From NCBI GenBank assembly GCA_964030785.1, contig OZ034975.1, forward strand, positions 1,312,201 to 1,376,200: DNA of 64,000 nucleotides. Direction: 5' to 3'. Below are positions 31,001 to 54,800 of this stretch, one piece after another; within the stretch, counting starts at the first letter, position 1; every line of letters begins with the position of its first letter. Source of the DNA: Siderastrea siderea (lineage: Eukaryota; Cnidaria; Anthozoa; Scleractinia; Rhizangiidae). Made by a program: the position numbers and the translations under genes. The notes under the pieces were generated by a model. The model made no database searches, was not told the origin of the DNA, and saw only the letters and a list, made by a program, of their open reading frames with translations.

Positions 31001-31159
31001 AAGGGTGCTCGTTTGGTTGTTCCCACTTGTATGCGCAAGGAACTGATGTCTGTTGCACATTCTACACACATAGGAATAGAAGGATGTTTGAGAAGAGTTC
31101 GTGAGTCTGTTCTGGCCAAGAATTGCATCAGATGTCAAAGATTTTGTCTCCAAGTGTGA
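28031..31159 (+). pseudogene. gypsy 1 Gag-protease-RT-RNase H ORF (frameshifted before integrase)
   Basis: A single frame of 1042 codons. Gag occupies about 1-300 with a CCHC knuckle CNKCNKQNHFANVC at 263-276. The protease has DTGA at about 333. The reverse transcriptase has VFTVLDVACGFW and the IADD catalytic box near 641, followed by RNase H with QCDASQHGLGAVLL near 793 and TDHKPLE. It then enters the integrase zinc-binding region (H-x-H-G near the end) and loses frame at about 31105-31130; integrase continues in the overlapping frame. Gag and Pol are fused without a frameshift site. Start chosen at the first ATG after the leader stem-loop. Confidence 0.93.
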
Positions 31160-33490: not shown

Positions 33491-33836
33491 TAGCCACCTT
33501 CTTTTGAAGACGAAACTCAATTACTATTTGCTATTCGATGAAGTTGATACAAATTTTACAAATACGAACGTGACGGGGATTGCAGTTTCCGGTTTAGCAG
33601 CGCTTTTGTCTCCTGAAATTTGATGTTCTTTAACCTTTGCAAGAAGTGAATCGAGTGTTTCTGCCGACTTTGTTATGTAATCCAAGATTTTAGAGGCGAG
33701 TAGGCTGAGAAAACAGCCGACGTTTCGCGAGGTCGCCACTTGAGCAGTAATAAGGGCAGAGGGCACCCAGACAATAAGTTTGTGTTTAACCGTTTGAAAT
33801 AATTGTGGTAAATGTAAAAATTATAGTAAATGTAAA

Positions 33837-33865: not shown

Positions 33866-34001
33866 ATCCTTCGAAATCGCTTTCAGGGACCGGGACCGTC
33901 GTCGGGACCGATTACATGAGCCGGGCCAACGGTAGGTACGTGGTGTAACTATCATATAGTGGTTTGACTTAATCCAATATAGGAACAAACATAGGAAGCA
34001 A

Positions 34002-36790
34002 TATACATAGCTATACACAGCCATACACAGCAATACATGGCTATACACAGATATACATAGCCATACATAGCTATACACAGCTATACATAGCTATACATGG
34101 CTATACACAGCTATACATGACTATACATGGCTATACATGGCTGTACATGACTATACACAGCTATACACAGCCATACATGGCTATACACAGTTATACATAG
34201 CCATACATAGCTATACACAACTATACACGGCTATACATGTCTATACACGGCTATACATGGCTATACACAGTTATACATAGCCATACATAGTATACCCGCT
34301 ATACATGGCTATACATAGCTATACACAGCTATACATAACTATACATAGCTATACACAGCTATACACAGCTATACATGGCTATACACGGCTATACATGACT
34401 ATACACAGCTATACATGGCTCTACACAGCTATACACAGCTATACATGGCTATACACAGATATACATAGCCATACATAGCTATACACAGCTATACACTGCT
34501 ATACATGGCTATACACAGCTATACATGCCTATACACAGCGATACAAAGCTATACATGGCTATACACAGATATACATAGCCATACATTGCTATACACAGCT
34601 ATACATGGCTACACACAGCTATACACAGCTATACACAGCTATACATAACTAGACATAGCTATACACAGCTATACACAGCTATACATGGCTATACACAGCT
34701 ATACATGACTATACACAGCTACATATGGCTATACACAGCTATACACAGCTATACATGGCTATACACAGATATACATAGCCATACATAGCTATACACAGCT
34801 ATACACAGCTATACATGGCTATACACAGCTATACATGACTATACACAGCTATACATGGCTATACACAGCTTTACACAGCTATACATTGCTATACACAGAT
34901 ATACATAGCCATACATAGCTATACACAGCTTTACACAGCTATACATGGCTATACACAGCTAAAAATGGCTATACATGGCTATACACGGCTATACATGGCC
35001 ATACATGGCTATACATGGCTATACACAGTTATACATAGACATACATAGCTATACACAGCTATACACAGCTATACATAGCCATACATAGCTATACACAGCT
35101 ATACATGGCTATACATGGCTATACATGGCTATACATGGCTATACATGACTATACACAGCTATACACAGCCATACATGACTATACACAGATATACATAGCC
35201 ATACATAGCCATACATATCTATACACAACTATACACAGCTATACATGGCTATACACAGATATACATAGCCATACATAGCTATACTCAGCTTTACATAGCT
35301 ATACATAGCTATACACAGCTATACATGGCAATACACAGCTATACATAACTATACACAGCTATACACAGCTATACACAGCAATACACAGCTATACATGACT
35401 ATACACAGCTATACATGGCTATACACAGCTATACATGGCTATACACAGTTATACACAGCTATACATGGCTATACACAGCTATACATGGCTATACATGGCT
35501 ATACACAGTTATAGATAGACATACATAGCTATACACAACTATACATAGCTATACATGGCTATAAACAGATACACATAGCCATACATAGCTATACACAGCT
35601 ATACATAGCTATACATGGCTATACACAGGTATACATGGCTATACATGGCTATACATGGCTGTACATGGCTATACACAGCCCTACATGGCTATACACAGAT
35701 ATACATAGCCATACATAGCTATACACAACTATACACAGCTATACATGGCTATACACAGATATACATAGCCATACATAGCTATACACAGCTATACACAGGT
35801 ATACATGACTATACACAGATATACATAGCCATACATAGCTATACACAGCTATACATAACTATACACAGCTATACACAGCTATACACAGCTATACACAGCA
35901 ATACACAGCCATACACGACTATACACAGCAATACATGGGTATACACAGCTATACATAACTATACACCGCCATACATGGCTATACCAGCTATACATAGCTA
36001 TACACAGTCGTACATAGCTATACACAGCTATACATGCCTATACACAGCTATACATGGCTATACACAGCTATACATGGCTATACACAGATATACATAGACA
36101 TACATAGCTATACATAGCTATACACGCTATAGACAGCTATACATAGCTATACATGGCTATACACAGCTATACATGGCTATACACAGATATACATAGACAT
36201 ACATAGCTATACATAGCTATACATGGCTATACACAGCTATACATGGCTATACACAGATATACATAGCCATACATAGCTATACACAGCTATACATAGCTAT
36301 ACCTGGCTATACACAGCTATACATGGCTATACATGGCTATACATGGCTGTACATGGCTATACACAGTTATACATGGCTATACACAGATATACATAGCCAT
36401 ACATAGCTATACACAGCTATACACAGCTATACATGGTTATACACAGCTGAACATGGCTATACATGGCTATACATGGCTATACACAGCTATACACAGGTAT
36501 ACACGGCTATACTGACACAGCTATACATATCTGTATACAGCTATATATGGCTACACACAGCTCTATATGGCTATACAAAGTCATATATGGCTATACACAG
36601 CTATACATGGCTATACATGGTGGTTGCTATCGAGGTTAACAAATCACGGCTATACTGACACAGCTATACATATCTGTATACAGCTATATATGGCTACACA
36701 CAGCTCTATATGGCTATACAAAGTCATATATGGCTATACACAGCTATACATGGCTATACATGGTGGTTGCTATCGAGGTTAACAAATCAC
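34002..36790 (+). repeat. Left satellite array, 10-bp unit (CTATACACAG / CTATACATGG)
   Basis: About 2.8 kb of near-uninterrupted 10-bp units, chiefly CTATACACAG, CTATACATGG and CCATACATAG, with almost no indels so that the 10-bp phase is kept. A 30-bp variant group (ATATACATAGCCATACATAG) recurs at multiples of 10 bp. At the inner edge a 143-bp unit is duplicated identically (36504-36646, 36647-36789). Open frames of the Y-T-x-L-Y-x-A-I-H-x type are a by-product of the repeat. Confidence 0.97.
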
Positions 36791-37258
36791 AGGCAAAAAC
36801 GATAAGCAAATCCACCGTACGTTTCTTCTACATCAGACTTCAGTTGTTTTTGTTGTTGTTATTGGTTAATAAAGTTGTATTTTGCTGCTTCTTTGTGTCA
36901 TGTCACCATATCAATCATAAAAAAAGTAATTTCATGGGTCCGCGTTTTGAAATTTTTAGGTGTCCTCATTTGGTTAATAAAAGTTTGACTGACGTATGTA
37001 CATACCATTACCATACATTTGTTACTCTGAGTTCGAACCACTAATTTTAATGAAGACAGGTGAATTCAGTGACGTGCACAAAGTGCAGAAAACCATTATT
37101 AGTCACAGAATTGGTACAAAGTGTTGCAACTTCTTGACAGTGTACCAAAATGACTCGGACTCGGACTCTTATTGAACGAATGGATTCCATTTGGACGTGC
37201 GTGTGTACTCTGATAATGAACACACAGATGACTTCAAAATGTGGTAAAAACACAGAAG
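36791..37258. other. Central region of the giant element, left part
   Basis: Unique AT-rich DNA between the left array and the gypsy 2 insertion. No coding or RNA feature recognised. Confidence 0.5.
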
Positions 37259-37422
37259 TGTTGACCGGCGAGGACAACTTCTGAAGAACACAACATTTAA
37301 TACATATAGTTCTAACAAACGGCCAAACACACGGCCATGCTCTCTTGTACACAACAACTGCTCATGCGCCGCATACCGCTGACCTAACCTAAGACTTGAG
37401 AGAATGTTAACTCCTATCAACA
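37259..37422 (-). repeat. 3' LTR of gypsy 2
   Basis: 164 bp; on the minus strand preceded by the purine tract at 37423-37433. One difference from the 5' LTR. Confidence 0.96.
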
Positions 37423-37560
37423 TCCTCCCTTTCAAAGAAAACTATTAACGTGTTAATATGTTTCGCATGAGACAGTGAACAAGTAAAATAAACAAATATG
37501 AACAAGCAATGTCAGTTAGCAGTCATCATTGAGTACAATTGTACTCTGAAGTCTCTAGAC

Positions 37561-40500
37561 TCAAAGGTCCAGTCTCTTGGGTGGTCTAATCGTTCGGCCA
37601 CAACGGGACGTTTGCACTGGACTCTCAGTTGGTGAATCTGAAATGGGAATGAGCTCTGTGGTTTCTGCAGAATTCCCTGCGGCTGAAGTGTCACTATCAT
37701 CTGTCACTGGTGGTTCCAGGGTTTGCAGGTTGCAAGGGACTGAAGGCTCAGCAGGTCTTAAGTGGGTCCTGTTCCGTCTAACCAACCCACCTTGTGTTTC
37801 GACGACATACGAACGCGGAGTCACTTCCTCTAAGACTTCGCCACGATCCCAGCGTTCACCACGGTGACGGTCATTTGGTCTGGTGAACACAATTTGTCCA
37901 GGTGAGAGAGGGGGTAAGTCTCTGCTTGCCGTTTTGTCATAGTGGGCCTTAGCTTTAGCTCGCCTGCCCAGATGTTCGTCACGCACTAAGGCTACTGGTG
38001 GCACAGCTTGGCTCAACAATGATTCAGCTATTGGCAAGGTGGACTTCGTTCGAAGGCATAAAAATCTCTGTGCTGGGGAGTAGGTCATACCCTGAGGCGG
38101 AGTGTTCCTATGATCCAAGAGACCAGTGAGGAGATCCGACTTTTTCAACATCTTCTTGGCTTCCTTGACAGCGGATTCGGCTTTACCAGTGGCTCTAGCG
38201 TAATAGGGTGACCGGGTGATCAACTTAAAACCATGGGCCTTGGCAAAGTTCACAAACTCTTGAGAGGTATATTGGGGCCCATTGTCTGACAGAAATGTTT
38301 CTGGCACACCATAGCGGGCAAAGTGCGCCTTAGTCACGGAGATAACATTGGCAGCGGTGATGTCTTCGTTTAACAGATCAACCTCAAACCAGTCACTGTA
38401 GTGGTCTACTGTAACAGCATACCAACGCCCTCCATGCTTAAACAAGTCCTGCGAAATGAATTTCCATGGACCATGCGGAATCTCATGAGATAACATCGGT
38501 TCTTTCGGGAGCGCTGGGCCATAGCTAGCACACAACGAACATTTGGCACTCTCTTGAAGAATTGCTGTTTGCATTCCAGGCCAATACATTACTTCTCGGG
38601 CACGACGAATCATACTTTTACCGCCCTGGTGGCCTTGGTGGAGTTTTTTCAGCATAGTAGACTGTAGCTTTAGGGGAATGACGACCTTGTGTGATTTGTA
38701 CAGGACACCATGGTACATTGCTAGCTCATCCCGCAATGGATAGTAATGACGAAGTGCTGTGGGAACCTGCGATTTGTCGGAAGGCCATCCATGAGCAACA
38801 AATTCACAAAGGACTGACAGGGTAGGGTCTGCTTTCGTTTCAGCTTTGACTTCTTCTAGTGTGCTAGGATACATCTCTGGCGAGTCTAGTTCCAGGGCCT
38901 CTAGCTCTACTCGGAACATCTCGTGGTTGTCCTCCGGGTCGCATTGAAACACCTCTTCTTGTGGGCCTGAAGGTGAAGGGAGGTTCAGGGCAGCTCTTGA
39001 CAATGTATCAGCCAAGTACATGTATTTGCCTTTCTTGTAGACTACTGTAAATTTGAAAGGTTGAAGCTGAAGCATCACGCGTTGAAGGCGCCTGGGGGCT
39101 TTACTCAAAGGCTTCTTGAAGATTGTCTCTAACGGTTGGTGGTCAGAATGTACTATAACATCTTGTTTGCCATAAAGATACTGATAGAATTTTGTACACG
39201 CTACTTTGATGGCCAAACATTCCTTCTCAATAGGCGCATAGTTAACTTCGGTTGCCGACAGTGTTGAGCTTGTAAAAGCCACAGGCTGCCCATCTTGTAG
39301 TAGGGCTCCACCAAGGCCCGTATCGCTGGCATCCACTTGTAACACACATGGCTTGTTTACATCAAAGAACTTCAATGTTGTGGCATTTGCAATTGCACTT
39401 TTGGCCGTCTTGAAAGCTGTGTCATGCTGAGAAGACCATGACCAGACTGCATCCACGTGTGTCAGCTCAGCAAGTGGCTTCACAATTTCTGCAAGATTTG
39501 GGGTAAAGCGTGACAAATAGTTGCACATACCCAGGAACCGCTGGACCCCTTTTACATCTTGCGGTGGGGTCATGTCCCTAATGGCCCGGACTCGATCTGG
39601 ATGCGGAGTAATTCCATCACTGCTAAGGAGATGGCCCATCCAAGTAACTTGCTTCACTTTGAACTGAAATTTCTTTGGGTTCAACTTGAGATTCACTTCT
39701 CGGCACCGCAACATTAAGTTCCACAAATTAATGTCATGATCCTTCTCTGCCTCCTCAAGACTACCACCCCTTCCAAAGACTAAGATGTCATCAGCCTTGT
39801 TTACAACACCACTCAATCCTTCAAGAGCTTCATGCTGCCTACGCTGGTACTCCTCTGGCCCTAGGCTGACCCCAAAGGGCATACGCAGCCAACGGTAGCG
39901 GCCAATTGGAGTGTGCATGGTCGTTAAAAATGAGGAACTTTCATCTAACTCGATGTTTGTGAAGCCCTTGTACACATCCACACAGGAAAAAATTTTGACA
40001 CTGTTCAACTTTGGCAATAACTCATCAACTGTAGGAATGGGGTATTTTGGAACTTCAATGGCTTTATTGATTGTCTGGCTGGGGCCAATGCACACCCGTA
40101 TGCTTCCATCGGGTTTCTCTCTGTAAACACTGTTAGAGATCCATGCTGTTGGCTCAGTGACTTTTTCCAGGATACCCTGTTTTTCAAGGTCACGTATTGC
40201 TTCTGCTGTTTTTGCTTCTTTTACCACTGGACACCGATGGGGATGGGCTTGGATTGGAGCCACATTAGGGTTCATGCGGATGTGTAGGGGTGGACCTAAT
40301 GTTCCCAACCCAGTATGGACATCTTTGAATGCCTCCAAGACAATGGCCTTGGTCAGTTTTCCCCCAGGGACAGGCATATGGGACACTCCCACCTCACTAG
40401 CTGCACTCACCATTCGCTTAACTTGAGCTTCACTGGTTGCGGTACCGTTAACTGCACTTACATGTATATCTGCACATACACTGTTCACTGGAGAAGTAGT

Positions 40501-40809
40501 GTCAGGTAAACCCGCTGGTTTCAACTCTCCTGTTGGGCTGTCATTCAGTGAGGTTGGCCTACTTTCCTTATCAGACATTCCACTTTCCTCTACTTTTCCC
40601 CACTGAGATTCAGATTTCTTGTCAGTCTCTTTGTGGTCATTCTGATGCAAGGATGGGGCATTTCTTCTTATCTCAATCAGGCCTAGCCTAATACAATCAG
40701 ATCCACTCAAAAGGGGTGGTTGTGAACCCATGACATCTTTACTTAACAGTTGAAATTGAAGAGTGTGAAACTTTCCCTGAGTTTCGCAGACTAACTCAAT
40801 TTGCCCCAC
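37561..40809 (-). CDS. gypsy 2 Pol polyprotein (protease end, RT, RNase H, integrase)
   Basis: Open frame of 1082 codons. The first ~50 residues finish the protease domain begun in the upstream Gag frame. RT spans roughly 170-400 with FSCVDVYKGFTNIELDESSS and an ADD box (KADDILVFG, ~339-341) in place of YxDD. RNase H has QVDASDTGLGG near 485 and SDHQPLE. Integrase has an HHCC zinc region (LHQGHQGG to CSLC) and a D-D-E core with VDHYSDWF, LSDNGPQYTS and TGKAESAVKE, then a C-terminal RNRTHLRP segment. The upstream 7 codons to the stop at 40831 are in the same frame as Gag, so the listed start is only the first possible one and is probably not a true initiation site. Order RT-RH-IN is that of Ty3/gypsy. 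Confidence 0.93.
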   Translation of the reverse strand: MGQIELVCETQGKFHTLQFQLLSKDVMGSQPPLLSGSDCIRLGLIEIRRNAPSLHQNDHKETDKKSESQWGKVEESGMSDKESRPTSLNDSPTGELKPAGLPDTTSPVNSVCADIHVSAVNGTATSEAQVKRMVSAASEVGVSHMPVPGGKLTKAIVLEAFKDVHTGLGTLGPPLHIRMNPNVAPIQAHPHRCPVVKEAKTAEAIRDLEKQGILEKVTEPTAWISNSVYREKPDGSIRVCIGPSQTINKAIEVPKYPIPTVDELLPKLNSVKIFSCVDVYKGFTNIELDESSSFLTTMHTPIGRYRWLRMPFGVSLGPEEYQRRQHEALEGLSGVVNKADDILVFGRGGSLEEAEKDHDINLWNLMLRCREVNLKLNPKKFQFKVKQVTWMGHLLSSDGITPHPDRVRAIRDMTPPQDVKGVQRFLGMCNYLSRFTPNLAEIVKPLAELTHVDAVWSWSSQHDTAFKTAKSAIANATTLKFFDVNKPCVLQVDASDTGLGGALLQDGQPVAFTSSTLSATEVNYAPIEKECLAIKVACTKFYQYLYGKQDVIVHSDHQPLETIFKKPLSKAPRRLQRVMLQLQPFKFTVVYKKGKYMYLADTLSRAALNLPSPSGPQEEVFQCDPEDNHEMFRVELEALELDSPEMYPSTLEEVKAETKADPTLSVLCEFVAHGWPSDKSQVPTALRHYYPLRDELAMYHGVLYKSHKVVIPLKLQSTMLKKLHQGHQGGKSMIRRAREVMYWPGMQTAILQESAKCSLCASYGPALPKEPMLSHEIPHGPWKFISQDLFKHGGRWYAVTVDHYSDWFEVDLLNEDITAANVISVTKAHFARYGVPETFLSDNGPQYTSQEFVNFAKAHGFKLITRSPYYARATGKAESAVKEAKKMLKKSDLLTGLLDHRNTPPQGMTYSPAQRFLCLRTKSTLPIAESLLSQAVPPVALVRDEHLGRRAKAKAHYDKTASRDLPPLSPGQIVFTRPNDRHRGERWDRGEVLEEVTPRSYVVETQGGLVRRNRTHLRPAEPSVPCNLQTLEPPVTDDSDTSAAGNSAETTELIPISDSPTESPVQTSRCGRTIRPPKRLDL

Positions 40810-40830
40810 TGGCTTTATTACACCTCCTCC

Positions 40831-42072
40831 TTAGGTGTGCAGAATGGCAGAAGAAGGTTTTATTAGGCTACGGATGTCACAGTCCGGTGGACACATGCTC
40901 ACAAGGTCATCCACTGCAAGTGTGTTAGCTGTTGAGGCTGTATCTAATTGCAAAGTTTTCCAAACAAAACAATTTCCAGCTGCTGATAATTTGATCGCTG
41001 CAAAGAGCTTCTTCCCTTTCTGCACGGATACAGTTCTCACAGAGTGGATGTCCACTGTAAACAAATGATATGTTTCCTGCTCGCCATCATAAACAGACTC
41101 ATTCAGTGCATTCACATGCCGAGGCTTGCTTAAACATTTACGGGCTACATGCCCTTCTTTGCCACATTTTCTACAAATATACTTAAGAAGAATCGCACGA
41201 CACTTTTCTTTTGCGTGACTTGGTGTTGCTCCACAGTAGTTACACTCAGGCTGTTTCGGGGGCAACCCTTTACTAGAGCTTCCACTTGGAGACTGAGGAT
41301 TTTTTGTCTTTGATGGGGGCACTTTTGCTGTCCAGTTGACCTGCTCCTGATCTCCACGGACTTGTCTCATAAGACGTCGAGCATCAGTTGAGGATTCATA
41401 ATTCTTAGCAATTTCAACCACAGCACGAAACTCCACAATGTTACCTTCCTTGTTACGATGACCATTGGTGTTCAACTTTCCTTGTAAGGCTTCGTCTACC
41501 AAACCAGCAATGAAACGATCCCGGCATGCCTGATCTTCAAAGTCCCCATATTCGCAATATTTAGCTCGTTCCACCACTCGACATTCCCAGGCACTAATCG
41601 ATTCTCCCTCGGACTGAAACATTCGACCCATCTTCGTTCGCTCCGCTTGCACACTCACACTACCGCCAAATCGCTTAATGAGGGCTTGAATAACTTTTAC
41701 TGGATTGTCTTTATTCTCTTCAGACAGTCCCAGCGTTTTGTTATTGGGATTAATCAATCTCTTCATCTTTGAGGGTAGAGTTGCTCGTAATGTCGACATG
41801 CATAGACTTGGTTTCTTCCACTGTGCTTTGCCATCCTCGCTTTCATCGTCATATTTGCACCCAGCTTTCGACTGGAACCAGCCCATCACCGTACAATAAT
41901 CGACATAATCCAAAACGAAACAGTCTAGAGCTTCTCGTTCATCCAGTCCTTCCTGCAGTTGAGGAACAGGAAAACCGACCGGTGCACCCGCCATGATAAA
42001 AACAAACACGAACAGTTTTTGCGGGCACCAGCTCGACAAGAACATAAATGGCGGGAACGAATCGCACAACAA
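40831..42072 (-). CDS. gypsy 2 Gag with start of protease
   Basis: 413 codons. An N-terminal region rich in aromatic and charged residues is followed by a capsid-like helical region and two C-rich motifs: CNYCGATPSHAKEKC (atypical) and a standard knuckle CRKCGKEGHVARKC. After it comes LQLDTASTANTLAV, which looks like the aspartic protease active site with DTA instead of DTG. The frame stops at TAA (40831-40833) within the protease domain. The actual start may be the second ATG, giving MAGAPVGFPVPQLQEG. Located just after the 5' LTR and leader on the minus strand. Confidence 0.9.
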   Translation of the reverse strand: MLCDSFPPFMFLSSWCPQKLFVFVFIMAGAPVGFPVPQLQEGLDEREALDCFVLDYVDYCTVMGWFQSKAGCKYDDESEDGKAQWKKPSLCMSTLRATLPSKMKRLINPNNKTLGLSEENKDNPVKVIQALIKRFGGSVSVQAERTKMGRMFQSEGESISAWECRVVERAKYCEYGDFEDQACRDRFIAGLVDEALQGKLNTNGHRNKEGNIVEFRAVVEIAKNYESSTDARRLMRQVRGDQEQVNWTAKVPPSKTKNPQSPSGSSSKGLPPKQPECNYCGATPSHAKEKCRAILLKYICRKCGKEGHVARKCLSKPRHVNALNESVYDGEQETYHLFTVDIHSVRTVSVQKGKKLFAAIKLSAAGNCFVWKTLQLDTASTANTLAVDDLVSMCPPDCDIRSLIKPSSAILHT

Positions 42073-42159
42073 CTACGACCGCTCAACTTCCAAACACGAA
42101 ATCACCACAATATTAATGCTACTTGTCTTCAGGCGAGTGTTCGTCTACTTCTGGCACCA

Positions 42160-42323
42160 TGTTGACCGGCGAGGACAACTTCTGAAGAACACAACATTTA
42201 ATACATATAGTTCTAACAAACGGCCAAACACACGGCCATGCTCTCTTGTACACAACAACTGCTCATGCGCCGCATACCACTGACCTAACCTAAGACTTGA
42301 GAGAATGTTAACTCCTATCAACA
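42160..42323 (-). repeat. 5' LTR of gypsy 2
   Basis: 164 bp; on the minus strand followed immediately by primer-binding site TGGTGCCAGAAG. Target duplication GAAG lies outside at 42324-42327. Confidence 0.96.
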
Positions 42324-42330
42324 GAAGTAC

Positions 42331-42465
42331 GCTAGGAGCCGTGTGTACTGTAATAACAAACTCCTCTAGTTAAAAGAGAGAGGTTTTCGTAATTACGAAA
42401 ACGAAGACCCCCTCTTTTTTAACTAGAGGAGTTTGTTTTTACAAATATTACACACGGCTCCTAGC
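42331..42465. repeat. 135-bp palindromic hairpin element
   Basis: Arms of about 55 bp (GCTAGGAGCCGTGTGTA and TACACACGGCTCCTAGC-type ends, ACAAACTCCTCTAGTTAAAA mirrored by TTTTAACTAGAGGAGTTTGT) enclose a short loop containing CGTAATTACG. It begins 7 bp from the gypsy 2 end. It is a MITE-like foldback with no coding capacity. Confidence 0.85.
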
Positions 42466-42734
42466 AATTCGAATTCTTCATTGTGCGGACTTTTAAAAAG
42501 TCTACATCTGGTAATCATGGGGTTCTTGTTTTTGTTTTCTTCATTTGAAAATCAGTCATATAAAAAAACAAATTGAAGGCGAGTGAATCCACAACCCTTT
42601 ACTTCCTGTGCGAATTACAGCGGTAAACGGAAGCTTAACCACACAGTTTTGTGTTACTTTCAAATGCCCGTTTAGATATCTTCTTGCCATTATATTACTC
42701 TGTCTGTTTTTCGTTTCCCTCTGGTTAAAAATGA

Positions 42735-42857
42735 GGGGGTTTCGTTTTCGTAATGGGTCTTCGTTTTCGAAAGGGGTCTTCGTTTTCGTAAGGGTCTTCG
42801 TTTTCGTAATGGGTCTTCGGGTCTTCGTTTTCGGGGTCTTCGTTTTCAAAACTAACG
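42735..42857. repeat. Short tandem repeat, GGGTCTTCGTTTTCG unit
   Basis: About six degenerate units of 15-19 bp (GGGTCTTCGTTTTCGTAAT and shorter). The same core occurs in reverse complement in the loop of the neighbouring hairpin (GAAAACGAAGACCCC), suggesting that the repeat expanded from that element. Confidence 0.8.
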
Positions 42858-43141
42858 ACGACAGTTGCTGCTGTGATTCCTATTGTTCAGCTCAGCTTGC
42901 CCCACCAAGCACTACGGCGTCTTTGATGTTGTTGTCGATTTTCAAAGTTTTTGCGAACTTGCCAAAAATTAGGGTCGCACTAGGAAAATTACGCTGTTGA
43001 TAGATTTTAACTACAAAGCCAGTGAACTTTCGCAAAAATTTGCCAAGTACGACCCATGGCTGATAAAATAATATCACCGGGTACATAAGTGAACGTTTGT
43101 TGTCGATAGATCTCAGGCAAGGAAGATCAACTTACCTTTGA

Positions 43142-43600
43142 TTGACGTATACACTACTCTCACAATTTCAGGAATTTCCTGCCCAGGCACTCAGGCCCAC
43201 TTTGTTGATGAATCTGTACAAGATTTGTTGCAGAGCAGATTTTGACTCGCCTTGTGAAAATATTCCAAGCGATTCCACCGTAATCGTTAAAACCACCTCT
43301 ATATCTCGTCGCGGAAAAACCGTTTCGCGTCACTTAAATGGATTGACCGTGAAGGCCTGGGAAAAAGCCACACAGGAACTAGGCAAGGAAAAAGCCACCG
43401 GGACTCTACATTCACCCGACAGGTGCTCCTGGTTGGCAACAGGCTTCAAGGCACCTATGCATGCCTGCCCTATGTGGAAGTCTGATCAAAAGAGGGCGAC
43501 GCGTTTGATATGTGGCCAGCTAAGGAGTTTGCGCAAGGCTGCAGCTATGTATAGCCAGGAGCCCACAAGGGTTGTGGGCTCCTGGTATAGCTGTGTATAG
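43142..43600 (+). CDS. Unrecognised ORF within the giant element
   Basis: 152 codons without family recognition. A plausible acceptor (CAATTTCAG) just before EFPAQALRP suggests it could be an internal exon rather than an ATG-started gene. The stretch around HLNGLTVKAWEKATQELGKE is lysine-rich and helical. The last ~15 codons run into the CCAGGAGCCC hairpin and satellite, so the true end is probably earlier. It may be chance or a captured host exon; I cannot assign a function. Confidence 0.25.
   Translation: MTYTLLSQFQEFPAQALRPTLLMNLYKICCRADFDSPCENIPSDSTVIVKTTSISRRGKTVSRHLNGLTVKAWEKATQELGKEKATGTLHSPDRCSWLATGFKAPMHACPMWKSDQKRATRLICGQLRSLRKAAAMYSQEPTRVVGSWYSCV
43555..43585. repeat. Perfect 13-bp-stem hairpin next to a satellite island
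   Basis: CCAGGAGCCCACA and TGTGGGCTCCTGG separated by AGGGT. A partial GGGCTCCTGG recurs at 44324. It is followed directly by about 60 bp of the 10-bp satellite. Confidence 0.85.
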
Positions 43601-43643
43601 CTATGTATAGCTGTGTATGGCCATATGCAGCTGTGTATAATTG

Positions 43644-43644
<1 letters not shown>

Positions 43645-43719
<75 letters not shown>

Positions 43720-44616
43720 GTAATAACAATGTATTTATTCATCGGATGAAAATAGGTATCAGATGTTACAATAGAAATTATTTAAAAAATTATTTATATG
43801 CGCAATAGTACAATATATAAATGAACTAAATTAGGAACTAACTAGGTTATACTTAAAAAGTAATCTATTAAAAAAGCTATCTTTACATTGTAAAACGTTC
43901 TGTACTTATAGGAAGGTCTTATACTGGATCTATTTCTACGGCGCTCCAATGAATCTTTATACCTAGGAAGCAGACTATGTGACGGATGGTCATTACGTTA
44001 AAGTTTGTCAAAAAGGCGGCGGTTACGACTTTCCAAGAGCTCAAAGATGCTTGTGGCATCTTTTTAAAAAGCTTTGCACAGCGGTGAGGTCAGAAGCACT
44101 AGCTGCAAAAACTGAAAGGCCACACAGTATTTTAGGGAGCACAATCGCAGTAAAAACGCTGATCTAATTCGCCCTGTGTGTATCCTTCCTTACACAGGCC
44201 TGTAATTATAAATAAACATTTGCTGGCTCGTGAAGCTTTGCCTTAACATGCAAGCTAAACTAACAATTACTTTGTATTGTGACTCCCAGTATAGAGATAC
44301 AACTATACTGCATAATATCATAATGGGCTCCTGGTTATACTGTATAACATTGGATAGGCTGTAGGGTTGCCTTTCTTATGCAAGAGTAATTGCATTTACT
44401 AGTGTTACAGTGCACACTATTTGCGTGAGTCCAATCCATAAATTTAATCAATGCAATGCCCGATACATCAGGTAAATCTCTAGAGATCGTAACTAAGATT
44501 GTAGAATCATCTGCATATTTAAATAAAGATATCTCTTCGTGTCCAACTATTTCCAAGTCATTCAGGAATAAGTTGAAAAGGTATGGGCCACTAATACTAC
44601 CCTGAGTTGTACCTTT
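43645..44616 (-). mobile_element. 5'-truncated CR1/jockey-like LINE with trinucleotide tail
   Basis: On the minus strand, RT motifs occur at about 44616-44340: TQGSISGPYLFNLFLNDLE then YADDSTILV, the catalytic box. Near 43990-43850 another frame reads LLPRYKDSLERRRNRS and SYKYRTFYN, like the C terminus of such ORF2 proteins. The element ends in an (AAT)n/(ATC)n-type tail at 43647-43735. The intervening frames are shifted and the 5' half is missing. Short satellite islands flank it (43586-43640 and 44620-44652), so it inserted into satellite DNA. Confidence 0.7.
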
Positions 44617-44652
44617 TTACCCCTGTATAGCTATGTATAGCTGTGAGTGTGG

Positions 44653-45961
44653 AAGCGAACGAAATGAGGGTGGTACATGCACTGTCTGTGAAGAATGTGC
44701 TGAAATTTTAGTTTGTGCTAGGGATCAGAGAAACTTACAGATGTTTTACTTAGAATTTTAAAGCCTTCATTATTCTGGATATCCTGACTAATAATTGCTT
44801 AAAAGCTGACTGAGCTAACACAAAATAACAAGCGGTGACCCGTCGTCACTACATGATTTTAGATTAATTTTCTGAGCGAGCACTGACCAAAAAAGTTGTT
44901 TCAAACCGGTTAACTGGGGCAGCTAAATAGACAGGGACCGTGCGGCCTATTTTAGAGTAGGGGGCTAATTGGTGATCGCTCGTGTAAAGCAGGTGGGGGG
45001 GAAATCTCAAGCAAAAACTTTCTCTTTTCAAGTAATTAGCAATGTATCTAGAGCAGCCAAGTGTGATAAAAGTTGTCAGTTAAAACAGTCCCAAAATAAT
45101 GCTCCTTGACAGGTTCTTTGGTCGGCTCTACTCGAAAGATGAAACCGGCAAGCTATGAACCTTATCGTATTCGCATTTTTAAAGATCTCAAACATGAAAA
45201 CATTTTCCTTTAAAAAAACTTGTACAAGCAGACCTGTAGAATATTAAATCACTACTGAGTTTAGTATCATGAAACGTACATTTCTACCAAAGTCAGTCCG
45301 TAGCGGCCTAATTAAGGACTGAACGCCTTATTTGTTATCGATAGAACTGAGGAAATGTTTACATTTGTAGATTAGCTTGATAAAGTAACAGTCCTAATGT
45401 ATAATGCCCGGACAACACAAGAACAAAAGCCAACTAAAGTCCAAACTCTTCAACAACAGGAAAGAGTCGATGACAGTACGCGCAGAGTTAATGGCCCGAC
45501 AAGAGCGAGAGCGACAGTTTCAACTTCCATCGATTCAAGTGACTTGAAAAAGTCTGAACAGGTCCAGACTCTTCGAGATTCCCCAAGAGCGCGTGAGAAT
45601 TTTCAAATAATCAAGCCAAATGAAGGAAAGGCGATTTCAACACGGAGTTGTAGTATTCAGTTCCTGTTTGGTCTAAATTAAAAATTATATTTAACTGGTA
45701 AACCGAAAACTGATTAACTCTGAAACAAAGAAATTGTCCAACTTTTTCATTTATTTTTTAATGGCACCAAAAAAGGGAAAGGGGGTAAAAGCCCCCTCAG
45801 CCCACCCCTCGCGCGGTCCCTGATAGAAAGACCGCAAACAATAAATAAATTATTACAAAGAACAGCAGATTTCAAGAGAAGGGATAGGGAAAACAAACGC
45901 AGTGTATAGCTGTGTATAGCCATATATAGCTGGGTATAGCCACGTATGGCTGTATATATTT
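44653..45961. other. Central region of the giant element, right part
   Basis: Mostly unique DNA. A 94-codon open frame at 45397-45681 is hydrophilic and Arg/Thr/Gln-rich with no recognised domain. A 60-bp island of the 10-bp satellite lies at 45900-45960. Confidence 0.45.
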
Positions 45962-46074
45962 AACAATTATCCTGCGAAATCGCGCGGAATATCACCTGAT
46001 ACTTAGCCGACGAGGCCGTAGGCCGAGTTGGCTAAATCAGGGGATATTCCGCAAGATTGAGCAGGATAATTGTT
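45962..46074. repeat. 113-bp palindromic MITE
   Basis: AACAATTATCCTGC at the left is mirrored by GCAGGATAATTGTT at the right. Inner arms CGGAATATCACCTGAT and ATCAGGGGATATTCCG and a GAGGCCGTAGGCC loop complete the hairpin. Confidence 0.85.
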
Positions 46075-46712
46075 TTATTATTCAACAAATTCCCATCGCC
46101 TACCATTTTCAGAACGAGAAAAACTACGGCTCTATGATAAAAACGCTAAAAGCTAGCAACACATAAGCTTAATAAAAATCAAAACAGAACTTCAAGAAAT
46201 CGAAGTTTACTACCGTTCACTTAAAAAGACTTATTTACAAACTCATGTTTGGAAATGACAAGACAAAGGAAAAAAATATTGCTACCTTACCGAGAATAAG
46301 TCCTCTTTCTGTGAATTAAAATCTTTTCAACTTTAGTCTTTACAACTTTCCGTGCCGGCAAATGTGCTGCTTCGTTCGCAATAGCATTTTCTTGGTTGAG
46401 TTCTCACTATGAAAATTGCAAGTCAGCCTCTGGATATCTTTGTGAGCTGAAGGAAATACTTGTTGACGTTTTGAGAGCATTTAATCGTGGAAAGTTTCTT
46501 CCAGCGAGTTAAAATTTACGGACAACACTGCTAAAACTGCCTCGCTTTTCAAAATGGCCGGCCACCAAACAAGCAATGAAAGAAAATCTGCAGTGCACTT
46601 CCAGATATGGTCATTTACGTATATCGCAGGATATCTGTCATGTAGGATGACAGATATTGAGGGCTTCCTTACCATATATGGGCATAGTAACAATTTGTTG
46701 AATAATAACCAT
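46075..46712. repeat. Possible TIR element bounded by TTATTATTCAACAAATT
   Basis: TATTATTCAACAAATT at 46075-46091 is inverted as AATTTGTTGAATAATA at about 46693-46709. A smaller hairpin (ATATCTGTCA / TGACAGATAT) is at 46627-46655. No ORF of note. It abuts the start of the right satellite array. Confidence 0.5.
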
Positions 46713-49700
46713 GTATAGCTGTTAATAGCTGTGTATAGCCATGTATGGATGTGTGGAGCTAAGTATACCTCTGTATAGCCATGTATAGCTGTTTATAGCT
46801 ATGTATGTCTGTGTATAGCCATGTATAGCTGTGTATAGCCATGTATATCTGTGTATAGCTATGTATAGCTGTATATAGCGAGGTGTATAGTTTGTATAGT
46901 CATGTACAGCTGTGTATAGCTCTGTATAGCTGTGTATATTCATTTATACCTCTGTATAGCCATTTATGGCTATGTGTAGTCGCGTATAGCCATGTATAGC
47001 TATGTATAGCAGTGTATAGTCACGTACAACCATGTATAGCTGTCTATATCTATGTATGGCCATGTATAGCTGTGTATAGCCATGTATAGCTGTGTATATC
47101 CATCCATGTACAGCCATGTATAGCTGTGTATGGCTATGTATGGCAATGTATAGCCATGTATAGCTGTGTATAGCTGTGGATAGCCATGTATAGCTATGTA
47201 TAGCTGTGTATAGCTATGTATGGCTATGTATACCTGTGTATAGCCATGTATAGCTATGTATAGATATGTATAGCTATGTATAGCTATGTATACTCTCTAT
47301 AGCCATGTATAGCCATGTATAGCCATGTATAACCATTTATAGCCATGTATAGCTGTGTATAGCCATGTATAGCTGTGTATAGCTGTGTTTAGCTATATAT
47401 GGATATGTATACCTGTGTAGAGCCATGTATAGCTGTGTATGACTGTATACAGCCATGCATGCCCCTGTATAGCCATGTATAGCCATGTATATCTGTGTAT
47501 AGCCATGTATAGCTGTGTATAGCTGTGTATAGTCATGTATATCCATGTATAGCCATGTATAGCCATGTATAGCTGTGTATAGCCATGTGTAGCTGTGTAT
47601 AGCTGTGTATAGCTATGTATGGCTATGTATATCTGTGTATAGCCATGTATATCTGTGTATGGCTGTGTATAGCCATGTATAGCTGTGTATAGCCATGTAT
47701 AGCTATGTATAGCTGTGTACAGCTATGTATGTCTATGTATAACTGTGTATAGCCATGTATAGCTATGTATAGCTGTGTATAGCGGTGTATAGCTGTGTAT
47801 AGGAATGTATAGCCATGTATAGCCATGTATAGTCATGTATAGGCATGTATAGCTGTGTATAGCTGTGTATAGCCATGTATAGCTATGTATAGCTGTGTAT
47901 AGCTATGTATGGCTATGTATATCTGTGTATAGCCATGTATAGCTATGTATAGCTATGTATAGCTATGTATACTGTGTATAGCCATGTATACTGTGTATAG
48001 CCATGTATAGCCATATATAGTCATGTATAACCATTTATAGCCATGTATAGCTGTGTATAGCCATGTATAGCTGTGTTTAGCTATGTATGGCTATGTATAT
48101 CTGTGTATAGCCATGTATATCTGTGTATAGCTATGTATAGCTGTATATAGCGAGGTGTATAGTTTGTATAGTCATGTACAGCTGTGTATAGCTCTGTATA
48201 GCTGTGTATATTCATTTATACCTCTGTATAGCCATTTATGGCCATGTGTAGTCGCGTATAGCCATGTATAGCTATGTATAGCAGTGTATAGTCACGTACA
48301 ACCATGTATAGCTGTCTATATCTATGTATGGCCATGTATAGCTGTGTATAGCCATGTATAGCTGTGTATATCCATCCATGTACAGCCATGTATAGCTGTG
48401 TATGGCTATGTATGGCAATGTATAGCCATGTATAGCTGTGTATAGCTGTGGATAGCCATGTATAGCTATGTATAGCTGTGTATAGCTATGTATGGCTATG
48501 TATACCTGTGTATAGCCATGTATAGCTATGTATAGCTATGTATAGCTATGTATAGCTATGTATACTCTCTATAGCCATGTATAGCCATGTATAGCCATGT
48601 ATAACCATTTATAGCCATGTATAGCTGTGTATAGCCATGTATAGCTGTGTATAGCTGTGTTTAGCTATATATGGATATGTATACCTGTGTAGAGCCATGT
48701 ATAGCTGTGTATGACTGTATACAGCCATGCATGCCCCTGTATAGCCATGTATAGCCATGTATATCTGTGTATAGCCATGTATAGCTGTGTATAGCTGTGT
48801 ATAGTCATGTATATCCATGTATAGCCATGTATAGCCATGTATAGCTGTGTATAGCCATGTGTAGCTGTGTATAGCTGTGTATAGCTATGTATGGCTATGT
48901 ATATCTGTGTATAGCCATGTATATCTGTGTATGGCTGTGTATAGCCATGTATAGCTGTGTATAGCCATGTATAGCTATGTATAGCTGTGTACAGCTATGT
49001 ATGTCTATGTATAACTGTGTATAGCCATGTATAGCTATGTATAGCTGTGTATAGCGGTGTATAGCTGTGTATAGGAATGTATAGCCATGTATAGCCATGT
49101 ATAGTCATGTATAGGCATGTATAGCTGTGTATAGCTGTGTATAGCCATGTATAGCTATGTATAGCTGTGTATAGCTATGTATGGCTATGTATATCTGTGT
49201 ATAGCCATGTATAGCTATGTATAGCTATGTATAGCTATGTATACTGTGTATAGCCATGTATACTGTGTATAGCCATGTATAGCCATATATAGTCATGTAT
49301 AACCATTTATAGCCATGTATAGCTGTGTATAGCCATGTATAGCTGTGTTTAGCTATGTATGGCTATGTATATCTGTGTATAGCCATGTATAGCTGTGTAT
49401 AGCTGTGTATAGTTATGTAGAGCCATGTATAGCCATGTATAGCCATGTATAGCTGTGTATAGCTGTGTATATCAATGTCTAGCCATGTCTAGCCATGTAT
49501 AGCCATGTCTAGCCATGTCTAGCCATGTATAGCTGTGTATAGCGATGTATAGCTGTGTATAGCTGTGTATAGCCATGTATAGCTGTGTATAGCTGTGTAT
49601 AGCTGTGTATAGCTATGTATGGCTATGTATGGCTATGTATATCGTTGTATAGCCATGTATAGCTGTGTATAGCTGTGTATAGTTATGTACAGCCATGTAT

Positions 49701-51650
49701 AGGCATGTATAGCCATGTATAGCTGTGTATAGCTGTGTATAGCTGTGTATATCAATGTATAGCCATGTATAGCCATGTATAGCCATGTATAGCCATGTAT
49801 AGCTGTGTATAGCCATGTATAGCTGTGTATAGCTGTGTATAATTATGTGTGGCTATGTATATCTGTGTATAGCCATGTATAGCTGTGTATGGCTGTGTAT
49901 AGCTATGTATAGCCATGTATAGCCATGTATGGCTGTGTATAGCCATGTATAGCTATGTATAGCTGTGTATAGCTGTGTATAGCTATGTATGGCTATGTAT
50001 ATCTGTGTATAGCCATGTATAGCTGTGTATAGCTGTGTATAGTTATGTAGAGCCATGTTTAGCCATGTATAGCTGTGTATAGCTGTGTATATAAATGTAT
50101 AGCCATGTATAGCCATGTATAGCCATGTATATCCTTGTATAGCTGTGTATAGCCATGTATAGCTGTGTATAGCTGTGTATAGCTATGTATGGCTATGCAT
50201 ATCTGTGTATAGCCATGTATAGCTGTGTATAGCTGTGTATAGTTATGTACAGCAATGTATAGCCATGTATGGCTGTGTATAGCCATGTATAGCTATGTAT
50301 AGCTGTGTATAGCTGTGTATAGCTATGTATGGCTATGTATATCTGTGTATAGCCATGTATAGCTGTGTATATCTGTGTATAGTTATGTAGAGCCATGTAT
50401 AGCCATGTATAGCTGATATAGCTGTGTATATCAATGTATAGCCATGTACAGCCATATATATCCATGTATAGCTTTGTATAGCCATGTATAGCTGTGTATA
50501 GCTGTGTATAGCTATGTATGGCTATGTATATCTGTGTATAGCCATGTATAGCTGTGTATAGCCATGTATAGCCATGTATAGCTGTGTAGGTCTGTGTATA
50601 GCCATGTATAGCTGTGTCTAGCCATGTATAGCTATGTATAGCTGTGTATAGCCATGTATAGCTATGTATAGCCGTGTATAGCTGTGTATAGCTATATATG
50701 TCTATGTATGGCTATGTATACCTGTGTATAGCCATGTATAGCTGTGTATAGCCATGTATAGCTATGTATAGCTGTGTATAGCTGTCTATAGCTATGTATA
50801 GCCGTGTATAGCTGTGTATAGCTATATATGTCTATGTATGGCTATGTATACCTGTGTATAGCCATGTATATCTGTGTATAGCCATGTATAGCTATGTATA
50901 GCTGTGTATAGCTGTGTATAGCCATGTATAGCTGTGTATAGCCATGTATAGCTATGTATAGCTGTGTATAGCCGTGTATAGCTGTGTATAGCTATATATG
51001 TCTATGTATGGCTATGTATACCTGTGTATAGCCATGTATATCTGTGTATAGCCATGTATAGCTATGTATAGCTGTGTATAGCTGTGTATAGCCATGTATA
51101 GCTGTGTATAGCCATGTATAGCTATGTATAGCTGTGTATAGCCGTGTATAGCTGTGTATAGCTATATATGTCTATGTATGGCTATGTATACCTGTGTATA
51201 GCCATGTATAGCTGTGTGTAGCCATGTATAGCTGTGTATAGCTGTGTATAGCTGTGTATAGCCATGTATAGCTGTGTATAGCCATGTATAGCTATGTATA
51301 GCTGTGTATAGCTGTGTATAGCCATGTATAGCTGTGTATAGCCATGTATAGCTATGTATAGCTGTGTATAGCCGTGTATAGCTGTGTATAGCTATATATG
51401 TCTATGTATGGCTATGTATACCTGTGTATAGCCATGTATAGCTGTGTGTAGCCATGTATAGCTGTGTATAGCTGTGTATAGCTGTGTATAGCCATGTATA
51501 GCTGTGTATAGCCATGTATAGCTATGTATAGCTGTGTATAGCTGTGTATAGCTATATATGTCTATGTACATCTGTGTATAGCCATGTATAGCCATGTATA
51601 GCCATGTATAGCCATGTATAGCTGTGTATAGCTATGTATATTGCTTCCTA
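46713..51650 (-). repeat. Right satellite array, 10-bp unit, inverted relative to the left
   Basis: About 4.9 kb of CTGTGTATAG / CCATGTATAG units, the reverse complement of the left array. A 1,272-bp block is duplicated almost perfectly (about 46836-48107 and 48108-49379). From 50.6 to 51.6 kb a subunit with GCTATATATGTCTATGTATG recurs at 130-230 bp intervals that are multiples of 10. Long minus-strand open frames are a by-product of the repeat. Confidence 0.97.
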
Positions 51651-51848
51651 TGTTTATGCCTATATTGGATTAAGTCAAACCACTATATGATAGTTACACC
51701 ACGTATCTACGGGGCCAACAACCCTTCACGCAGACCAGAAGAATCGGGGGCTCTGAAAAACCGCGAAACCGATGGAATCGACGCGGGAAGGCACAAGAGA
51801 TTTTGTCACGAGATTTTAGTAGATTTTCTATCAAACGGGTAAACAAAG

Positions 51849-54800
51849 ATGCATCAGGAACATATTGTCGCTAAATTCCTGCAAGGCTTCTACGTTCTTT
51901 TTCATTACACAGTTATAATACTGGGACTAACTGGTGTCCTTCCGATTGCATTGCTGTATTTTCTCTACATTCAACCACTATCATGGCTTCTTTTAGCGAT
52001 CTATTTGACCTGGTTGTTCATCGACTGGCGAACACCTAAACGAGGTGGAAGAAAAGTTGGTGTAAACTTCATAGGCAGCTTGTATCCATTCAGATGTATG
52101 CGAGATTACTATCCTATTAAACTGGTTAAAACAGCGGATCTCGATTCCAAAAGGAACTATATTTTTGGCTACCACCCCCACGGATTTATGCCTGACGGTT
52201 TGTTGATAAGCTTTGGAACCAATTTACTTGGTTTTGAAGAAGAGTTCCCTGGCATTACACCGCATATTGGAGCTCATTCCAGTACGTATCTTAGTAAGAC
52301 ACCTTTAAATTACACCTTCGCAAAATAAGTGCACCAGGGTCTGGAAGGGTATTCTCGGGATCCGGCATTTGGCCAAAATACGGTGCGGGATTCGGGAAAA
52401 CGCAAAATATCTTGACGGGATTCGGTATTTCACTGCTACCAGGGAAGCGGGATTCGCCAAAATTTGGGCGCGGGATGCAAGACTTTTTGCTTGTCTGTTG
52501 GGAATTCGGGAAATTGCCATGACGGAAGTAAACATTCTAGCGGCAAAAGCGAATCAACCAGGTGAGTGCAAAATATCAATCGAAAGGGCCAATCTACGTC
52601 TGAAATTTATTAGCTGTTACAGAAATTAGTCTTTTTTAAACGTATTTTTGGGAAAGAAAAGACGGGATTTGGGATAGCAATGAAAAAAGTGCAGGATGCA
52701 GCACTCTCGTGAAAAAGGAGCGGGAATGCGGGATCAGGACCCCCCCCCCCCTTCCAGACCCTGATGCACTGTTATGGTGATGCATGGCAATGGCATATGG
52801 CCTAATCTTTTTTCTTTGCATTATGGTAAAGAAAACATACAAACCCTTAGGTATTGACAGGGGCTCATACCAGGGCTTCTGGTATTGACAAGTAAAGCAA
52901 AGGGCAGTACAGCTGTATGAGCTTGGGGTACCTGTGAAATACAAAATTTTGGATTTATCAACTGAGTTGATAAGGTAAACTGGCCACCGTAAAGAGATTG
53001 AAAGCTGACGTTTCGAGCATTAGCCCTTCATCATAGCAAATCCGCTTTTATCTTTTTTCGCAAGGGTTAGGGTCATGCATGGGGTGGTATTTTACATAGT
53101 ACATAGGATTTGAGGGTATTGGACATGATGTAAGTCAATAGGCCATTTCCAAGTTGTCCTGTGCCTCTTTTTCAAAGCGAGGCCTGGTGCACAACCTTTC
53201 ACGTGAAAATGAGTTTCATTTGTATGTGGATGAAAATTCATTTTCATATGAAAGGCTGTGCACCAAGATTCATTTGAAAAAGAGGCACAAGACAACTTGG
53301 AAATGGCCTATTACAGGTTTAATAGGCTCGATTACCAGCCACCATTGGGGAAAATGAACCTAAGAAAGCTGTAGAAATCGAGCCTATTTATGGGTGCCCC
53401 TCAGACTCATTTCTCTTTCTGGTCCAAATATACTATGTTACATTAGATGGGGCAATTTTTCTTGCAGCTGCAGTAATGAAAATTATGTTTACAAGAGGCA
53501 AGTTGCATTATATTAATATAGGTTACAAGCTGCACGATTTATCAATTTGCTAAAACCACTGCAATAGTGTTTCATTTCTTAATGTTGGTAACAAAATATT
53601 CTTTTCTTCTAGCAATACTTCAAACTCCATTTTACCGAGAGGTTGCATTGTGGCTCAGAGTTGTGGATGTGCAGTTGGAGAGTTGTAAATATATCCTGAC
53701 ACAGATGGGTCCAGGGAATTCTATTGCAATAACACCTGGAGGGGCAGCGGAAATGCTGGACTCATGCCGCAAAGATTACATTTTGACTGTAAATAGACGC
53801 AAACAATTTATCAAAATGGCATTAGAGACAGGGTATGTTTATGGCTTGTTACTTTTTTTCCAAAAGTAGCATAAATTTAAGAAGGTATTCATGTAATTTA
53901 CACATCTAATGATGCTTGCATTTATGATATGTTTAATTCTATTTACCATCCAGTTACTTATTTGTTTATGCCAAACTGATCCAGTTAGAGTCAAAACTGA
54001 CTCTGATATTAAGAGGAGCCCTGGGTATATTTCTTTATTGGGTACTGAACAATCACATTTTCAAATTTGATGGAATTTTTTTGTTTCTCATTACAGGTCT
54101 TCCCTGGTTCCTGTATTTGGATTTGGACAAAATGACAGTTTCCACCAACCATCTTTCACCAACCTTAACTGGCTGAAAAGCTACAAAAGAATAAACCGCT
54201 CAGTACTGGAGAAATGGGTGAAATTATTTATCAGGGGCACACTGATTTCACTTTGCGGCAAGTTCTGCATCCCGTGTCTTCCTTACAACAACCCAATAAC
54301 AGTTGTAGGTAAGATAATTGACTCAGTATAAAACAAACTACTATTTATTTGGCAGGGGTAGACCTAAATTGATTGGCTGGTTTAATTGCATGCCCTTTGT
54401 ATGGTACTAAAAATAGCATTCTGGTAAATAAAACTTGTCCACAAAAGTGATATTCAAGTCAACAGAAAGTTCATTAAAAAAGTTCATTAAAAACAGTCAT
54501 ATTAAAAACCCTAAACCACACAACGATGAAGACACCTGAAGTTTGGGACTAAGACAGTCTTTATTGACAACTAATTAAATGATTAATAACACAATATACA
54601 AAATAATTAAATAGCTAATATGACACTCCAGCACCGATGAAACTAAATCAGCACAATACAAAATACAAGCGTAGTAAACAAACAGACGGTAGGCTGTCAA
54701 GATAATAATGATAGAAGGTATATAACCTAGGAGGGCAGGGTGGGAAAACTGCTTAACAGTGTGCTTATAATTGTGCTGTGTGCTCTAGAGCAGAAATATT

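Follow-up and report, generated by a model that had tools for sequence, protein, structure and literature searches.

A dispersed family of foldback-structured elements with 10-bp satellite arms in Siderastrea siderea, and a one-sided motif near its insertion sites

FB of Drosophila and TU of sea urchins are transposons whose ends are made of short tandem repeats and whose target duplications measure 9 and 8 bp, respectively. An original prediction for the DNA analysed here (64,000 nucleotides of Siderastrea siderea contig OZ034975.1, hereafter the window) likened a giant element within it to these two; the likeness stands as one of structure, inverted ends made largely of tandem repeats, and the ends of those two elements are far shorter than those of the present family. 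The bacterial transposon Tn7 recognises an asymmetric sequence and inserts at a fixed offset from it, at one site and in one orientation; the fixed offset is common to Tn7 and our family, whereas orientation in the family is free.

Galileo of Drosophila, a member of the P superfamily, is similar in those parts of its description that were available: long repetitive ends with variable-number tandem repeats in some copies, many non-autonomous copies, and a short direct duplication. Its ends reach about 1.2 kb, with repeats of about 210 bp and a duplication of 7 bp, whereas the family has arms that exceed 9 kb in some copies, a 10-bp unit and an 8-bp duplication. Tetris of Drosophila virilis, as far as the available portion of its description goes, is a foldback element with tandem repeats at its ends, a varying non-coding middle and 8-9-bp duplications in complete copies; it differs in a repeat unit of about 220 bp and in having only three complete copies, and the portions of the literature covered describe no fixed-distance target motif for it. 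True target specificity is found in the Dada DNA transposons, which, in the available parts of the Dada paper, insert into snRNA and tRNA genes and duplicate 6-7 bp rather than the 8 bp seen here; in Dada-U6 and Dada-U1 there are no terminal inverted repeats, but a short sequence is shared with the target. Targets of the present family, unlike those of Dada, vary outside the motif described below.

The element in the window and its dispersed relatives

The element spans 17,781 bp (33931-51711; Table 1). Its tips (33932-34001 against 51641-51710) form an inverted repeat with 95.7% identity over 70 bp, and each repeat consists of about 71 bp of unique sequence with an array of a 10-bp satellite directly inside. 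The original prediction had described inverted repeats of about 80 bp, direct 8-mers at both ends and two satellite arrays in opposite orientation; apart from the length of the repeat, all of this is borne out, with the arrays facing inward. The copy lies about 130 bp upstream of the first ATG of a lipid-acyltransferase-like (DAGAT-type) reading frame, between two divergent members of the DAGAT family in opposite orientation.

Table 1. Coordinates of the element and its parts within the window
Feature	Position	Strand	Basis
8-bp target duplication, left copy GGGCCAAC	33923..33930	+	sequence reading
Left terminal inverted repeat, tip GGTAGGTACGTGG	33931..34001	+	95.7% to right tip; tip pattern 166 times in genome
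Left 10-bp satellite array (TATACACAGC / TATACATGGC / TATACATAGC)	34002..36618	+	repeat analysis
143-bp tandem duplication, array/core border	36502..36790	+	repeat analysis
Conserved core, about 4.1 kb minus gypsy-like insert	36765..45960	+	six frames tested; identity to other elements
Gypsy-like retrotransposon inside core	37259..42323	-	164-bp end repeats, 99.4% identical; named by eye from frames
Reverse-transcriptase fragment (RVT_1), in core	44338..44616	-	Pfam, E 2e-8
Piece of about 750 bp with internal inverted repeat, outside core common to L031, L049 and L050	45961..46710	.	comparison
Right 10-bp satellite array, opposite orientation (reverse complement of TATACATAGC)	46711..51640	-	repeat analysis
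Right terminal inverted repeat, tip CGTAGATACGTGG	51641..51711	-	inverted match to left tip
8-bp target duplication, right copy GGGCCAAC	51712..51719	+	sequence reading
Target motif GGTCTGCGT (7/9), start 25 bp outside right tip	51728..51736	-	flank reading

Searched across the 831-Mb genome, a 38-bp tip pattern matches 166 tips, and its reversed form none. Positions were compared for 108 tips (100 listed of the 166, plus 8 from other readings, some approximate by a few bases), and of the 35 neighbours lying no more than 100 kb apart 33 face inward, at spacings of 0.34-71.6 kb; pairing was restricted to inward-facing neighbours, so the informative figure is the small number of non-inward neighbours (35 - 33). 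The two smallest pairs measure 337 and 459 bp. Tips read GGTAGG and CGTAGA. The tip pattern has no match in viral contigs, a collection that may leave out genomes closely related to that of the window.

The 8-bp duplication is perfect in 28 (elements of 39.7 and 71.6 kb among them) of the 31 elements whose two flanks were fetched and read. Cross-pairing the flanks of the first 23 elements gives no identical 8-mers in 506 combinations, and with the tips fixed only 1 of 23 shows a duplication of 6 bp and none one of 7, 9 or 10 bp. The three imperfect cases are L042, which has a doubled 29-bp tip, C4_2.8M, which matches at 6 of 8 positions, and C10_4.3M, which is shifted in a way that resembles a 2-bp loss. 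Comparison with the fetched loci yielded no usable empty site. Twenty stretches were read 10 kb inward and represent 19 elements (L040 and L050 are two ends of one); arms of more than 9 kb of the 10-bp unit are found in L040 and L044. With such satellite arms a transposon has a direct means of carrying kilobase satellite arrays to new places.

The other copies thus provide both the paired inverted ends and the 8-bp direct repeats for which the original prediction proposed to look, and because they do, the element is a mobile one with foldback structure; as a descriptive class, foldback fits the family by its inverted ends of tandem repeats and by the dispersal of copies that carry target duplications. 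An inverted segmental duplication or an assembly artefact, for which the DAGAT frames in opposite orientation on either side might be cited, has a negligible probability in view of 33 inward pairs genome-wide and of 28 in 31 elements having a direct 8-mer of their own, although assembled array lengths may still be wrong. The prediction had itself argued against a simple inverted duplication, from which inverted and not direct flanks would be expected.

A motif on one flank at a fixed distance

A feature that the original prediction did not see is a motif resembling GGTCAGCGG outside one end of the element. Called at 7 of 9 matching bases or better, it marks a single flank in 24 of the 31 elements and both flanks in none (0/31), which disposes of a two-sided target. 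In 21 of the 24 motif-bearing elements it starts exactly 25 bp outside the tip, so that a 9-bp motif is followed by an 8-bp spacer and the 8-bp duplicated site; the copy in the window agrees, with GGTCTGCGT at -25. Control positions have the motif in 1, 1, 0 and 1 of 62 flanks. Collapsing related contexts, at an arbitrary clustering threshold of 65% outside the motif, leaves it in 20 of 24 contexts (absent from 7 elements, or 4 contexts).

The motif was first spotted on these same flanks. Flanks fetched after it had been noticed have it in 9 of 21 cases, against about 0.25 expected, and further flanks fetched later in 6 of 16; these held-out sets include a few flanks from shared contexts. In a test on 44 flanks the motif is observed 17 times and the best of 1000 shuffled motifs 13 times, with 2 of 44 for one control window and 2 of 44 for the reverse complement of the motif. 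The exact word GGTCAGCGG is absent from the fetched copies (20 stretches, exact word only) except in flanks and in the Polinton-like inserts described below.

From the one-flank counts and the spacing at -25 it follows that the element inserts at a set distance from an asymmetric motif and may face either way relative to it. To our knowledge most animal DNA transposons insert with weak, symmetric preferences, and a single fixed motif distance is unusual for an animal DNA transposon; a limited search of the literature did not find such a target rule. Since the offset is base-exact and the motif one-sided, something reads the target, and the same offset gives a simple assay for finding the reader.

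The motif could instead be a by-product, if what the element prefers is certain repeats or open promoter chromatin in which GGTCAGCGG happens to occur. Five elements, including that in the window, do lie in loosely related contexts and are all motif-positive, four more lie in another repeat, and the window copy sits close upstream of the first ATG of the DAGAT-type frame. However, the four elements in the second repeat are motif-negative, the 20 motif-bearing contexts are unlike each other outside the motif, and a general chromatin preference would not yield the base-exact spacing seen in 21 of the 24 motif-bearing elements. We regard the by-product explanation as improbable.

The family is very probably one of non-autonomous, foldback-structured DNA transposons that are moved in trans and insert 25 bp from a one-sided motif. 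A DDE transposase encoded elsewhere would bind the tips, and the element would be moved by cut and paste and joined at an 8-bp stagger, with a host factor or a domain of that transposase binding the motif on one side and so guiding the choice of target. Slippage and unequal exchange probably lengthen and shorten the arrays. They may also hold secondary transposase sites, as the available part of the Galileo literature states for the tandem repeats of Galileo ends. More tentatively, it is possible that a dedicated selector reads the asymmetric GGTCAGCGG and cuts at a base-exact distance, with the 10-bp unit of the arms, about one helical turn, providing hundreds of phased binding sites.

The core and candidate transposases

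The whole core recurs at 94.8-96.8% identity in 6 of 19 elements and in part in 6 more; in L031, L049 and L050 the match to the core in the window ends, among the matches listed, near 45960. In copies of 3.4 and 5.2 kb tips and arrays are all there is, with no core between them, yet their duplications are perfect; the core thus seems dispensable, provided that it did not disappear from them after they had inserted. No transposase is found by Pfam in six frames of the window's core of about 4.1 kb: the reverse-transcriptase scrap alone clears its cut-off, the remaining matches, among them one to a primase zinc finger (E 0.0016), fall short of theirs, and a comparison of a 152-aa frame with 10 candidates shows none related at E 0.01. 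No autonomous copy was identified either. The original prediction had recognised no transposase in the centre and proposed an element moved in trans or a new family, and that proposal stands.

The transposase might come from the MULE group, as in a foldback of the FB/NOF type. FB/NOF makes a 9-bp target duplication. Of 165 candidates in the genome 150 were scored and 53 matched MULE, five of these in open frames of 984 aa; measured against the 100 tips listed out of 166, all 53 lie more than 100 kb away (the nearest at 110 kb), and the duplications are exactly 8 bp, not 9-10. This source is rather doubtful, even with Tetris, a foldback of unknown transposase, having duplications of 8-10 bp in the available part of its description.

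The hAT transposons duplicate 8 bp of the form nTnnnnAn. Among 26 duplications (two repeats of GTCATGTG being excluded from the 28), only 2 have both T at position 2 and A at position 7, and hAT was rejected.

It is likewise rather unlikely that the family is, like Galileo, a foldback offshoot of the P superfamily that the genome's own P-type transposases mobilise. Galileo is P-type with tandem repeats in its long ends, and the 8-bp duplications agree with the length of about 8 bp that the available parts of the Dada paper give for P elements (7 bp for Galileo itself in those of the Galileo paper), that is, with the 7-8 bp of the superfamily. All 125 candidates for the P-type RNase H domain were scored and gave 45 matches, 11 of which lie in frames of 641-686 aa free of stops. 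Against the 100 listed tips of 166, however, 44 of the 45 matches come no nearer than 140 kb, and the contig of the remaining one carries no listed tip. An exact match to tip bases 2-15 followed by a different base occurs at a single genomic site, fewer than the 13 of the reversed control, so that other families with such tips were rejected too, in a test that diverged tips escape. Target motifs of P and hAT, in the portions of the literature available, include the duplicated site, whereas the motif here lies 8 bp outside the duplication.

Gene-bearing inserts in the arms

The left array of L037 holds an integrase frame (rve, E 6e-12) together with chromodomain, GRF zinc-finger and SLOG-like matches below the Pfam cut-offs, and L047 has a SLOG-like frame, also below the cut-off, in DNA 89% like that of L037 over 1.0 kb. 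One L037 frame, a tentative candidate for a minor capsid gene, gave nothing convincing against sequences of solved structures (best E 0.11). Such copies could be read as the autonomous form of a family derived from a Polinton-like giant element, a descent that we consider highly improbable. Polinton/Maverick elements duplicate 6 bp and have ends starting AG; the 8-bp duplication and the GGTAGG and CGTAGA tips do not fit that group. The integrase family is very abundant in its own right, with at least 5895 relatives among 8000 scored. The inserts of L037 and L047 both start with AGTAGTAA, but at different phases of the 10-bp array, as expected of separate nested insertions, and on the array phase the Polinton-like cargo was rejected as the autonomous form.

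The window element and its family

The transposon copy in the window (17,781 bp, 33931-51711) represents a real, dispersed, non-autonomous DNA transposon family, foldback-structured, whose satellite arms are unusually long and whose target rule is exact to the base. The original prediction described direct 8-mers outside both ends, inverted ends, and 10-bp satellite arrays in opposite orientation; the 8-mers (GGGCCAAC) and the arrays are present (table), and the ends pair as inverted repeats at 95.7% identity across 70 bp. Matching shared with L031, L049 and L050 (L numbers denote family loci fetched from the same genome) stops near 45960. The element is flanked by two divergent frames resembling diacylglycerol acyltransferase (DAGAT), the first ATG of the right frame lying about 130 bp downstream. 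A GPCR-like frame was also noted by eye; like the DAGAT frames, it suits an animal genome, perhaps a cnidarian one.

Features in the window and in two presumed nested inserts
Feature	Position	Strand or orientation	Remark
8-mers GGGCCAAC	33923-33930; 51712-51719	direct	outside both ends
Satellite arrays	34002-36618; 46711-51640	opposite	
Gypsy-like element	37259-42323		centre of window element
Piece of ~750 bp	~45960 to 46710		beyond match to L031/L049/L050; internal inverted repeat within
DAGAT-like frame	33023-33520	-	
DAGAT-like frame	51843-52325	+	
DAGAT-like frame	57593-57892	+	
Second gypsy-like element	28010-32175		long open frames; by eye, from translations
Tandem array	16613-17882		74-bp unit, 17 copies, 94% matches
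Duplication, 2 kb	22674-24665; 60550-62581	direct	78% identity
Ends of presumed Polinton-like inserts	L047 6356-6720; L037 1242-1600	oriented from tip	carry CCGCTGACC

The genome searched is an assembly of 402 contigs and 831 Mb. With a 138-bp left-end query, and 40 scored out of 825 first-look candidates, at least 157 matches appear; a large share of these fall in arrays. A 38-bp query from the tip (the outermost end of the terminal inverted repeat), allowing up to three mismatches, matches at 74 places on the forward strand and 92 on the reverse; its reversed control finds none. Among 108 tip positions compared (100 listed, eight added from other searches), 33 inward-facing neighbour pairs at most 100 kb apart account for 66 and single tips for 42, while neighbours within 100 kb arranged in any other way number two. 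The inward pairs span 337 bp to 71,562 bp, 15 of the 33 falling in the 10-16 kb range.

Target duplications and the target motif

Both flanks could be read for 31 elements, and in 28 an identical 8-mer abuts both tips. Perfect duplications also flank the 39.7- and 71.6-kb copies. With tips fixed, the first 23 elements show a duplication of 8 bp in 20 cases, 6 bp in one, and 7, 9 or 10 bp in none; cross-pairing their flanks gives 0 identical out of 506.

Alignment of the flanks first revealed a word resembling GGTCAGCGG, some 25 bp outside the tip. Scored as a match of at least 7/9 starting between -29 and -21 (bp outside the tip), the motif occurs on exactly one flank in 24 of the 31 elements, on both in 0 and on neither in 7, and its start is precisely -25 in 21 of the 24 positives. 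Four control windows give 1, 1, 0 and 1 per 62 flanks. Of the 44 flanks that belong to the first 22 elements, 17 are motif-positive and the controls score 0, 0, 0 and 2; on the same flanks the reverse complement scores 2 in the same window, and 1000 shuffled motifs average 1.1 with a maximum of 13. Flanks obtained after the motif was noticed are positive in 9 of 21 (about 0.25 expected), and a further set in 6 of 16. Merging elements with similar flanks outside the motif leaves 24 contexts, 20 with the motif. The window element carries GGTCTGCGT at -25 on its right side. Counting against the rule, four of the seven elements without the motif lie in a single repeat context, and the word at -25 there is a weaker match, AGCGTGCGG (5/9). 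The motif adjoins either end type of the element, and insertion orientation relative to it is therefore free.

The left flank of L027 (34.7 kb) and the right flank of L032 (5.2 kb) share 94% identity across the 1.5 kb next to the tip, the two elements having the same position and opposite orientation. C5_24.9M and C1_35.3M (contig and Mb position) share that position, as judged from about 50 bp. A second common context unites L049, C10_4.3M and C5_2.6M (identity 0.91-1.0), which the window element and C5_56.4M join loosely at 0.66-0.72. Elements in shared contexts can be independent insertions at one target; those of like orientation can also have been copied together with the surrounding repeat.

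The foldback structure is of a known kind; the target rule is what appears new. The comparison took in Galileo, Tetris, Dada and a giant-transposon review, as well as FB, TU, Tn7 and Polinton. A limited literature search for foldback elements together with coral gave no match; with cnidaria it gave a midge survey and the giant-transposon review, and for fixed-distance insertion with an 8-bp duplication, one bacterial paper.

Arms, core and candidate mobilisers

Twenty stretches from 19 elements were each read 10 kb inward from the tip. Eleven run from array through core or other DNA into the opposite array; the rest show array alone, or stop short of the far arm. The 4.13-kb core, the shared centre, is whole in six elements (94.8-96.8% identity) and partial in six more. 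L032 and L033 (3.4 kb) consist of tips and arrays alone, yet both carry perfect duplications. The core therefore does not seem to be essential, unless these copies lost it after insertion. For some related copies the best alignment of the left arrays takes the inner end as anchor (L035 and L036, 94.9% over 3.2 kb), which suggests that length changes occur elsewhere in the array. Doubled tips were seen at L042 9672-9730 (a 29-bp tandem copy) and at C4:36519369-36519678 (144 bp between the two).

Against Pfam, the sole match above cut-off among six core frames is a reverse-transcriptase scrap, and a search with a 152-aa core frame found no relatives at E 0.01 among 10 candidates. The genome yields at least 53 MULE and 45 P-type transposase matches; of those compared, none comes closer to a tip among the 100 listed than 110 kb (MULE) or 140 kb (P-type). 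Few of the duplications follow the hAT pattern (2 of 26). P and MULE are the leading candidates for the mobiliser, as guesses. One P-type transposase family (G000 C13:16053280, C8:53694423, C5:28369257 and others) has 11 stop-free frames of 641-686 aa and was perhaps recently active.

Probable nested inserts in two copies

L037 and L047 contain inserts that we take to be Polinton-like. In L037 an integrase frame passes the cut-off; its chromodomain, GRF and SLOG-like matches fall below it. L047 has a SLOG-like frame that likewise falls short, and its DNA is 89% like that of L037 across 1.0 kb. Because AGTAGTAA opens both inserts but at a different phase of the array in each, and because the L037 integrase has thousands of relatives, they are taken as probable nested Polinton-like insertions. 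The word CCGCTGACC, the complement of the transposon target motif, occurs four times in the L047 insert, at spacings of 68-70 bp, and once in the L037 insert.
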